Positions 22,396 through 24,903 of a stretch of 64,000 bases of DNA are shown here, piece by piece. Location: NCBI RefSeq assembly GCF_014212495.1, contig NZ_JACKZC010000007.1:186001-250000 (forward strand). Reading direction: 5' to 3'. Every line of letters begins with the position of its first letter. The stretch's first letter is position 1. The stretch is from Pontibacter sp. Tf4 (GTDB lineage: Bacteria > Bacteroidota > Bacteroidia > Cytophagales > Hymenobacteraceae). Position numbers and translations under genes: made by a program. The notes below the pieces were generated by a model, which searched no databases, was not told the DNA's origin, and saw only the letters and a list, made by a program, of their open reading frames with translations.

Positions 22396-22794
22396 CTACC
22401 CGTTGTAGGCGGATCTTATCTTTTCAAGGGTTTCTTCAAACTCCTGCTGGCTGAACTGCTTTTTGTTGGCAAAGTTCATGTCCTGCATGCTGTATAACGG
22501 AATAAGGTGCACATGGGCGTGCGGTACTTCCAGGCCAACTACGGCTACGCCAACGCGCTTGCAAGGCACGGCTTTTTCTATAGCTGCCGCTACTTTCTTG
22601 GCAAAAGCCATAAGGCCCAGGTACAATTCGTCGTCCAGATCAAAAATGTAGTCGATCTGCTGCTTCGGTATTACCAGGGTATGCCCTTTGGTGGTCGGGA
22701 ACACATCCAGAAAAGCAAGGAAGCGGTCGTCTTCTGCAATTTTATAGGCAGGTATCTCGCCATTTACAATTTTGGTAAAAATCGAAGCTTCCAT
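22396..22794 (-). CDS. HIT family nucleotide-binding hydrolase
   Basis: A 132-residue histidine-triad protein with motif HAHVHL at residues 92-97; such proteins hydrolyse nucleotide phosphoramidates or dinucleotides. DxFLAFLDVFPTTKGHTLVIPK is the typical N-terminal half. It begins 3 bp after greA and shares its transcript. Physiological substrate unknown. Confidence 0.92.
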   Translation of the reverse strand: MEASIFTKIVNGEIPAYKIAEDDRFLAFLDVFPTTKGHTLVIPKQQIDYIFDLDDELYLGLMAFAKKVAAAIEKAVPCKRVGVAVVGLEVPHAHVHLIPLYSMQDMNFANKKQFSQQEFEETLEKIRSAYNG

Positions 22795-22797
22795 AGG

Positions 22798-23271
22798 TTA
22801 TCGGCTGATGTCTAAAATCTCGAACTGCAGTTTTCCGGCCGGCACGGTTATCTCAGCAATCTCCCCTACCGATTTGCCCAACAGGCCCTTCCCGATCGGG
22901 GATTTAACAGAGATTTTACCGGATGCCAGGTCCGCTTCTTCTTCAGCTACTAAAGTATAGTCTACTACCATATTGTTCTTCAGGTTTTTGATCTTTACTT
23001 TAGACAGAATAAGGGCTTTGCTGCTGTCCAGGTTCGACTCGTCAATCAGGCGGGCGTTGCCTACCACTTCTTCCATTTTAGCGATCTTCAGTTCCAGGTG
23101 GCCCTGCGCATCTTTGGCAGCGTCATACTCGGCGTTCTCGCTCAGGTCGCCTTTATCGCGTGCTTCGGCAAGCTGACGCGCTACTTCCGAGCGGCCTTTT
23201 GTTTTCAGTTCGTGTAACTCTTCTTTCAGTTTCTGTAAACCTTCGGCGGTGTAATACGATACTTTGCTCAT
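22798..23271 (-). CDS. greA: Transcription elongation factor GreA
   Basis: Rescues backtracked RNA polymerase by stimulating transcript cleavage. From the ATG at 23271 it is 157 residues, the family norm. The N-terminal coiled coil carries the acidic tip segment ARDKGDLSENAEYDAAKDAQ, and the C-terminal FKBP-like domain ends in KLQFEILDI. An upstream ATG at 23304 would add 11 residues and lies inside the terminator stem. A structured leader with an intrinsic terminator lies 32 nt upstream, suggesting attenuation. The HIT gene follows 3 bp after the stop. Confidence 0.95.
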   Translation of the reverse strand: MSKVSYYTAEGLQKLKEELHELKTKGRSEVARQLAEARDKGDLSENAEYDAAKDAQGHLELKIAKMEEVVGNARLIDESNLDSSKALILSKVKIKNLKNNMVVDYTLVAEEEADLASGKISVKSPIGKGLLGKSVGEIAEITVPAGKLQFEILDISR

Positions 23272-23289
23272 ACTATTGTTCTTTTGTTT

Positions 23290-23465
23290 AAAACACAAAA
23301 ACAAAGAGAACGGTTATGCTGATCATAACCGTTCTCTTTGCCAACTATGTAAATTATATTCGTTCTTTTCTCAGGGCAGTACCACCTGTAGCGGCAATGC
23401 GTGTTTTACCATATGCTGGTAATAAGGTTTTACAATAGGCAAGCAGCTATTCTGCTTACGTGCTG
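23290..23465 (-). ncRNA. Structured greA leader or small RNA ending in an intrinsic terminator
   Basis: On the minus strand a TATATTTG box (23479-23472) precedes about 175 nt with local hairpins: AAGCAG-AATAG-CTGCTT, TACCA-GCATA-TGGTA and ACAGG..CCTG. It then ends in a perfect 16-bp stem (23339-23324 with 23318-23303, 5-nt loop) followed by GTTTTTGTGTTTT. greA begins 32 nt further on. Either it is a leader that attenuates greA, as described for the E. coli greA leader (GraL), or an independent small RNA. I cannot assign an Rfam family by eye. Confidence 0.5.
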
Positions 23466-23471
23466 TTTAGG

Positions 23472-23479
23472 CAAATATA
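23472..23479 (-). promoter_or_regulatory. -7 box of the greA leader
   Basis: TATATTTG on the minus strand fits TAnnTTTG. A TTG lies upstream but at a 15-bp spacing, shorter than the consensus 19-21. Confidence 0.5.
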
Positions 23480-23532
23480 ATAAATTTTTAATTACAAGCG
23501 TCTGCCCTGTAGTTTTTAAATTTTTACCGGAA

Positions 23533-23964
23533 TTAAACCTGCCGGGTAAGCAAAAGCGTTTTGTGCGGGTAAACCTGGTTGCACCATTCCCACTTTTGCA
23601 ACACTTTAGGCGGCACCCGGCCCGGGTCTGCAACAGGCTTAAAACCACAGCTTTCGTAAAAGTGCTGCAGGTGCTCAAACGGCAGGCAGAAAAGTGTTTT
23701 TCCTGTTACCTGTGCCACCAGAAAAGTAACTATAGTTCGGGCAACGCCAAACCGCCGGAAGCTCTCCGGCACATACATACCGCCCAGTTCCAGCGTGTTC
23801 TCATCTACCGTTACCAGCCGGCCCACGCCTGCTTTTTCACCGTTTGCTTCGGCAATCACGATCAGCTCATTGCTATAGTTTGATAACTGGAAATGAACCT
23901 GCTGATACTGCGCATTTACCCAGGCTATGTCGTCGGGCTGCGCTTTACGGATAGTAAGTATCAC
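23533..23964 (-). CDS. GNAT family N-acetyltransferase
   Basis: A 143-residue single-domain GNAT. The acetyl-CoA pyrophosphate loop is seen in YVPESFRRFGVART (about 79-92), after the beta-strand LELGGM. Substrate unknown. It starts 6 bp after the SerA-like dehydrogenase and is probably co-transcribed. Its stop is followed by the promoter of the greA leader. Confidence 0.85.
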   Translation of the reverse strand: MILTIRKAQPDDIAWVNAQYQQVHFQLSNYSNELIVIAEANGEKAGVGRLVTVDENTLELGGMYVPESFRRFGVARTIVTFLVAQVTGKTLFCLPFEHLQHFYESCGFKPVADPGRVPPKVLQKWEWCNQVYPHKTLLLTRQV

Positions 23965-23970
23965 TATAGT

Positions 23971-24903
23971 TTATCGTTGGATCAGGGCTTCTATTTTCTG
24001 TACCAGCACCTCATTTATCTTCACATACGACTCGTGAGTCCAGCCGCCAATGTGTGGGGTGAGCACTACGTTTCGGGCCTTCGCCAGGTAACTATAGTTG
24101 GCCAGTTGCTCCTCGGTCAGGGTGTGCAGTCTTTCGTTTTCCAGCACATCCAGCGCAGCACCTTTTAGAGTTCCTTTCTGCAGGTGTTTTACCAAAGCTG
24201 TCTGGTCTACCACTTCGCCACGCGAGGTATTCAGGAACCAGACCGGCTTTTTAAAACCACTAAAAAAAGCGTCATCTGCAAAGTTATAGTTCTCCGGGAT
24301 GTACGGAATATGGAAGCTCACTACATCAGCTTCAGCCTGTATCACTTGCATCGGCACCTGTTCGGCCGGCACCGTTACTTTTTCGGGGGCAAACTTATCG
24401 TAAGCTAAAATGCGGCAGCCAAAGCCCTGCAGCACGCGCGCAAAGCTCTGCCCCATGTTGCCGTAGCCAAATATACCGATGGTTTTGCCGCCTATCTCTT
24501 CGCCACGGTTCTCTTCGCGCAGCCACACTTTTTGGCGCACTTCGCGGTCGCCGCGGGCAATGTTGCGGGTAAGCGAAAGCAGCAACCCCAGCGTAAACTC
24601 CCCTACCGCCTGCCGGTTTCCTTCGTTGGCAGCCAGCAAAGCTACGCCGCGTTCCTCCAGTGCACCCGCATCTATGTTATCGACGCCAGCTCCGGCGCGG
24701 GCTACAAATTTCAGCTTATCGGCATATTTTATAGTTTCAGCCGTGATGCGCATTTTGCTCCGAACAATAAGCCCGTCAAAACCAGCCAATGCTTCGCACA
24801 CCTCTATCGGTTTTATAGTTGGCCTGTAGTCCGCTTCCACCCCAATACGCTCCAGCATCGGGAAAATACTCGGGTGCATCTCGTCGATTATCAGGACACG
24901 CAT
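23971..24903 (-). CDS. D-2-hydroxyacid dehydrogenase, phosphoglycerate dehydrogenase-like
   Basis: An NAD-dependent oxidoreductase of 310 residues. The Rossmann motif GYGNMG is at 146-151 and the catalytic triad is Arg228 (NTSRGE), Glu257 (LENERLH region) and His284 (TPHIGGWT). It is the short form without a C-terminal ACT domain, so serine feedback control as in E. coli SerA is not expected. It may make serine (3-phosphoglycerate oxidation) or act on another 2-hydroxyacid. First gene of an operon with the GNAT gene. Confidence 0.87.
   Translation of the reverse strand: MRVLIIDEMHPSIFPMLERIGVEADYRPTIKPIEVCEALAGFDGLIVRSKMRITAETIKYADKLKFVARAGAGVDNIDAGALEERGVALLAANEGNRQAVGEFTLGLLLSLTRNIARGDREVRQKVWLREENRGEEIGGKTIGIFGYGNMGQSFARVLQGFGCRILAYDKFAPEKVTVPAEQVPMQVIQAEADVVSFHIPYIPENYNFADDAFFSGFKKPVWFLNTSRGEVVDQTALVKHLQKGTLKGAALDVLENERLHTLTEEQLANYSYLAKARNVVLTPHIGGWTHESYVKINEVLVQKIEALIQR

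Follow-up and report, generated by a model that had tools for sequence, protein, structure and literature searches.

In the 64,000-nt stretch of Pontibacter sp. Tf4 analysed here (the window), greA is preceded by a long hairpin and a run of U that point directly at it, with no other gene starting in between. The question raised by this locus is what a terminator does at the beginning of a greA transcript. The answer that we consider likely is attenuation: an intrinsic terminator would discard part of the greA transcripts and would work like GraL of Escherichia coli, with a feedback by GreA that we infer.

Anatomy of the greA leader

The features of the locus, in the order of transcription, are the following.

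23495 to 23497, minus strand: TTG, candidate -33 element (from the sequence; partly conserved by eye in the alignment)
23472 to 23479, minus strand: TATATTTG, -7 box of the greA promoter (from the sequence; Bacteroidota consensus TAnnTTTG)
23467, minus strand: predicted transcription start, placed from the box position with the spacing of F. psychrophilum
23439 to 23459, minus strand: leader hairpin I (GUAAGCAG/CUGCUUGC), 8 bp, predicted fold
23406 to 23422, minus strand: leader hairpin II (UUACCA/UGGUAA), 6 bp, predicted fold
23376 to 23400, minus strand: leader hairpin III, predicted fold
23302 to 23340, minus strand: terminator hairpin CAAAGAGAACGGTTATG-ATCAG-CATAACCGTTCTCTTTG, 17 perfect pairs with a loop of 5
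23334 to 23329 with 23313 to 23308, minus strand: GAACGG with CCGTTC, invariant core of the terminator
23290 to 23301, minus strand: U-tract TTTTTGTGTTTT, probable release site (from the sequence)
22798 to 23271, minus strand: greA, 157 aa, ATG at 23271 (Pfam GreA_GreB_N and GreA_GreB)
22396 to 22794, minus strand: HIT-domain gene (Pfam HIT), 3 nt 3' of greA

The original prediction had described a promoter-like box, three local hairpins and a perfect 16-bp terminator with U-tract ahead of greA. The box was confirmed: a matching one was present in 37/37 loci first examined (the window's own genome and 36 congeners), where, relative to the ATG, it is found between -190 and -221 with the hairpin between -60 and -65. 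The three hairpins were located as listed, and the leader body without the terminator folds with z = -2.8 (2/200 shuffles as stable). The terminator is indeed a perfect hairpin followed by a U-tract, with 17 pairs and not 16, and has an energy of -24.9 kcal/mol (window, 23340-23302); for the whole leader including it, z is -5.2 and 0/200 shuffles fold equally well. That the terminator points at greA with no later promoter was also borne out, as 0/48 Pontibacter loci have a TAnnTTNG box in the interval that runs from the hairpin loop to 12 nt before the ATG. The gene upstream of greA in the window encodes a GNAT acetyltransferase (Pfam) and runs in the same direction as greA.

A generic scanner reported 3 terminator-like sites in 3 kb versus 4.0 expected. 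Since this count is below expectation, a terminator-like match alone is not significant, and the weight rests on the stem (about 17-19 pairs), its position and its conservation, not on the scanner match. The promoter pattern of the scanner is of the sigma-70 type and missed the greA box, which is of the Bacteroidota type. The window leader gave no Rfam match at gathering score and sub-threshold matches only at E up to 10. The weak matches at the terminator (mir-77, L20_leader and others) are far under their gathering scores, reflect the long hairpin with its U-tract, and were discarded. A leader peptide was rejected as well: many leaders carry an ATG within hairpin II, but the downstream frames differ or stop immediately (by eye).

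Distribution of the hairpin and the promoter box

GreA gave a single match at E up to 1e-20 per genome in 120 genomes of the family and 148 of the class. A hairpin with U-tract lies 5' of greA in 48/48 Pontibacter loci, in 28/28 loci from five other genera of the Hymenobacteraceae (26-41 nt before the ATG), and, across 57 further families of the class, in 69/80 loci (50/57 families); these 80 upstream regions, out of the 148 class genomes, were hand-picked for family spread. The background was 8/780 dinucleotide shuffles and 24/316 control genes. The control genes were taken with a simple ORF finder from 20 stretches of 20 kb in related genomes, and the thresholds and the hairpin scoring are our own. 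The core of the finding, hairpin plus U-tract, is far more general than was first seen. Of the structured leader that had been predicted, this part extends through most of the class; the body with three hairpins was seen in Pontibacter only. The stem sequences vary from lineage to lineage. Outside the class, the same hairpin score was reached in 14 of 20 greA loci and a weaker score in 5 more; 1 locus had none.

In 61/80 class loci versus 10/316 control genes the distance from stem end to ATG is 12-50 nt, and a -7 box (TAnnTTNG) lies within 30 nt upstream of the stem in 54/80 versus 1/316. Box and hairpin position occur together in 50/80 class greA loci versus 0/316 controls; at displaced positions in the same greA loci the box was found in 24/276. 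The strict score was passed by 49 of the 80 named loci, and 39/80 passed on score, stem position and box alike. A looser score was passed by 64/77 named loci with long flanks, and by 35/780 shuffles too. From box end to stem the median distance in the class is 6 nt (quartiles 2.75 and 11.25; n = 54), with at most 14 nt in 46/54. Taking the placement of the -7 box in Flavobacterium psychrophilum, mapped at -12 to -5 according to the available part of PMC9723704, the median stem in the class starts at about +3.

Among the other genera of the family, the box stands within 30 nt of the stem, at a distance of 3-16 nt, in 18/28 loci (g25, g26 and g27); judged from the likeness of its hairpin to named loci, g26 appears to be Hymenobacter. 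The remaining 10/28 loci (g23 and g24) have no recognisable box near the stem, and only box-like sequences were seen there by eye. A -7 box that follows the hairpin loop and precedes the ATG was found in 1/28 loci of the other genera and in 4/69 class loci. Some class loci, L154 and L126 among them, pass the scoring with a hairpin that precedes a later promoter box; in loci of this kind it may be an upstream terminator.

Under the threshold are 11/80 class loci, two of them barely (L087 and L152). Inspection by eye showed that L127, L139, L140 and L141 keep the hairpin with a weaker U-tract, that L104 has a hairpin with hardly any U after the stem, that L138 has no hairpin before greA, and that in L133, L137 and L156 greA is close behind an upstream gene and has no leader hairpin. 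In the lineages of these last three, greA may have been placed into an operon and the control lost. The upstream regions of L139 and L140 (family f28) are GC-rich, and by eye the greA hairpin is retained there with the U-tract nearly gone; the pair offers a natural test for a role of the hairpin besides termination.

Covariation in the stem and in the leader body

The core GAACGG/CCGTTC is present in 76/76 family loci (48 Pontibacter and 28 others), its two halves separated by 10 to 16 positions. The stem alignment comprised 34 of 49 distinct family hairpins (left out were 12 Pontibacter hairpins extracted in the opposite orientation, and L040, L061 and L063); in it, 96.4% of cells pair and no variation occurs in the six core pairs. 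Cells in which both sides are changed numbered 85 versus 34.5 in shuffles (0/500 reached this value), with at most 35 in slid controls. In the same 34 hairpins the pairs changed on both sides (7/15 versus 5.8 shuffled, 122/500) and the further pair types (15 versus 15.3 shuffled, 441/500) were not above shuffles. All these measures count sequences, not events. Covarying on most measures, the family stem is read as being under selection for pairing, with fixed letters in six pairs.

In Pontibacter, the body between box and terminator is 106-139 nt long (median 127; 48 loci) and variable in sequence. Covariation of hairpins I and III was seen in a group of 13 alignable Pontibacter sequences, a group that consists of sequences other than that of the window. 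Both sides were changed in 8/10 pairs of the helix that is the counterpart of hairpin I and in 5/7 pairs of the counterpart of hairpin III. Jointly this amounts to 13/17 pairs, with 28 double-changed cells versus 10.4 shuffled (0/500) and at most 13 in slid controls. A second Pontibacter alignment of 11 sequences gave little covariation (1/16 pairs). The helix UGCUAAA/UUUGGCA proposed by RNAalifold is not claimed: 6/7 of its pairs never vary, the seventh departs by mispairs only, and by eye the helix is not kept in sequences outside the aligned group. In the group of 13 (L005 and relatives), near-invariant stretches of the body were noticed around GCUUAUGCUAAA and UUUACAUAUUUGGCAA, an invariance that exceeds what the hairpins explain.

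The covariance search across the family that had been suggested was carried out with a model of the body, R1, in 100 family genomes. It yielded 20 matches at E < 0.05, all at Pontibacter greA loci (11 training and 9 non-training), and the window genome is among the non-training ones (E = 2e-4). Six weaker matches away from greA (E 0.05 to 0.98) look like chance. The search thus found the body at Pontibacter greA loci and none at greA in 66 genomes of other genera; the greA locus was also missed in 12/34 Pontibacter genomes. Over 44 loci, R1 matched 19/35 non-training Pontibacter loci at E < 0.01 and 0/9 loci of other genera. Since R1 also fails at a third of Pontibacter, its silence in other genera is weak evidence; the short distance from box to stem in 18/28 other-genus loci is stronger evidence that the body is confined to Pontibacter.

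Probable attenuation and alternative readings

Whether the hairpin acts as a terminator was considered from its polarity. At least 7 T in 12 nt were found on the 3' side of 64/74 class hairpins versus 10/74 on the 5' side, no tail rule being applied; for control hairpins the figures were 20/55 and 3/55. By sequence, the greA promoter is separated from greA by an intrinsic terminator, the mark of the greA attenuator class. An antiterminator is a different matter. In lineages with a close box, the distance of at most 14 nt (46/54 class loci) is too short to pair with a stem arm. A box at such a distance leaves hardly any transcript before the stem from which a classical antiterminator could be built; the decision must lie with the polymerase and the factors bound to it. 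For Pontibacter, where a body exists, duplexes between stem arm and body were compared with those of shuffled bodies in a simple duplex test (mean z 0.12; 4/48 at p up to 0.05), a duplex-energy test that leaves more complex antiterminator folds aside. No arm-body duplex enrichment was seen. Taking these observations together, we favour a terminator with an efficiency set by the polymerase.

From the observed anatomy, conservation, covariation and control comparisons we infer that termination takes place, that it would be partial and that GreA may tune it. The greA transcription unit would start at the TAnnTTTG promoter, and transcription would meet the intrinsic terminator after about 130 nt in Pontibacter and almost at once in most other lineages. 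A fraction of the RNA polymerases would release there and leave a short RNA, predicted at about 167-178 nt in the window genome and, from the same anatomy, at roughly 30-55 nt where the stem adjoins the box. The remaining polymerases would read through into greA, and in Pontibacter also into the HIT-domain gene. The terminator probably limits the amount of GreA made. GreA acts on the transcribing polymerase in general, and by analogy with E. coli the factor most likely to tune release would be GreA itself; such a feedback on the leader is plausible. The earlier statement that readthrough must be regulated does not follow, since constant partial termination also fits.

In E. coli, as described in the available part of PMC6829880, the greA leader has a hairpin at +19 to +48 followed by a U-tract, and about two thirds of the transcripts stop in it. 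In that study (PMC6829880) the short RNA falls about four-fold when GreA is lost, and GreA must be catalytically active. If the two arms are exchanged so that they still pair, the effect disappears in log-phase cells and persists to some degree in late stationary phase. The autoregulation was not reproduced in vitro, and direct and indirect models were left open by the authors. The Bacteroidota leaders resemble GraL in having a promoter-proximal intrinsic terminator before greA and hairpin arms with a sequence constraint. They differ in that the stem mostly starts from about +3, not +19, at a promoter of the TAnnTTTG type, in the extra body of 106-139 nt in Pontibacter, and in being predicted from sequence. 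The parallel with E. coli that had been drawn is therefore upheld for the layout, hairpin and then U-tract, and not at the level of a family match: the E. coli K-12 leader, with the same layout, scores 127.5 bits with Rfam RF01769, which is not listed for the window leader at E up to 10 and gave no match at gathering score in the five Bacteroidota loci L005, L024, L053, L119 and L199.

Leaders of greA and rnk are the subject of PMC2965389, which we take to be Naville and Gautheret (2010). There too greA is preceded by a premature terminator, but in the part of that source available a clear antiterminator is described in each case, whereas the Bacteroidota mostly have too little RNA upstream of the stem, and in Pontibacter no antiterminator emerged from the simple duplex test. 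The main text of PMC2965389 contains neither the word Bacteroidetes nor Bacteroidales. The available main text of a Bacteroides thetaiotaomicron transcriptome paper (PMC7366714) does not mention greA. Similar greA switches are already known in E. coli and other phyla; for Bacteroidota none was found described in the open-licence literature.

A terminator at the start of the greA mRNA that is kept across most of the class, mostly with no room for a classical antiterminator, is a minimal natural system in which to ask how GreA increases termination in its own leader, a question still open for E. coli. The Bacteroidota greA leader is also a candidate RNA family for Rfam. A wider proposal is put forward tentatively, as one that we think may well be wrong: in Bacteroidota, and perhaps in bacteria at large, the greA terminator could be self-limiting and sensed by the complex of RNA polymerase and GreA without antiterminator, ligand or leader peptide, the six locked pairs of the family could be read sequence-specifically, and in Pontibacter the released stub could have been extended into a structured RNA that has its own function.

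Among the other readings, we regard as unlikely, though the least so, the one in which a trans-acting small RNA, released at the hairpin, is the chief product and greA is expressed by reading through its terminator, especially in Pontibacter with its added body. The covariation of body hairpins I and III and the confinement to greA of all 20 body-model matches at E < 0.05 (100 family genomes; 11 training) speak for it, as does the trans role that GraL also has in E. coli (available part of PMC6829880). Outside Pontibacter, however, the RNA would be little more than a hairpin, and yet the arrangement persists across the class, which makes a shared function in cis more likely; the trans reading is compatible with attenuation and does not exclude it. 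That the hairpin only protects or shapes the 5' end of the greA mRNA, with transcription not being stopped, is improbable. Where a box is close (54 class loci), the stem is near the predicted mRNA 5' end. But the 3' U-tract and the long, strong stem belong to terminators and would be superfluous for protection, and in Pontibacter about 130 nt of transcript would precede the hairpin.

An ordinary terminator of the upstream gene is very improbable. The upstream gene is co-directional in many genomes and may use the hairpin as well, and some scored hairpins (such as that of L154) look like one; against this, a hairpin passing the looser score is present in 41/49 named loci in which the closest ORF upstream lies on the opposite strand (simple ORF finder on longer flanks; five g27 loci were mixed and not used), so that it is not just the terminator of that gene. 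In addition, the box stands within 30 nt ahead of the hairpin in 54/80 class loci, and no box follows the hairpin in 65/69. We give equally little credence to a DNA operator for a repressor, to which the invariant GAACGG/CCGTTC half-sites and their nearness to the promoter outside Pontibacter, where a box is seen, would be suited: the half-site spacing varies from 10 to 16 bp, other stem positions covary as RNA, and in Pontibacter the palindrome is about 130 bp from the promoter. Least credible of all is a 6S RNA. 6S RNA, including 6S-Flavo (RF01685), is similar in length to the Pontibacter leader RNA (about 175 nt), and no 6S-Flavo match occurs elsewhere in the genome; but the Rfam comparison that had been suggested gave no 6S match at the locus at E up to 10 and no 6S-Flavo in the whole genome, and the predicted fold is not 6S-like, being without a single long closing stem and central bubble. 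Both 6S RNA and 6S-Flavo were rejected on these grounds.

A gene with a HIT-type motif follows greA after 2-5 nt in 30/30 Pontibacter loci, so the greA terminator may control both; the HIT-domain gene is probably in the same operon as greA and under the same terminator. Among the named loci, such a gene was noticed within 700 nt after greA in 73/80. A repeated palindrome was observed in the window: with 139 occurrences over both strands versus 2.0 expected, AACTATAG is the commonest octamer of positions 1-64000 (examples near greA are at 23728-23737, 23873-23880 and 23964-23971), and the 10-bp palindrome AACTATAGTT occurs 28 times. It resembles a highly iterated palindrome such as the cyanobacterial HIP1. 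The octamer is rare elsewhere (5 matches in the other 27 Pontibacter loci and 7 in 400 kb of other genomes) and frequent in the window genome and two relatives, with 15, 6 and 11 matches in the 3-kb loci L001-L003.
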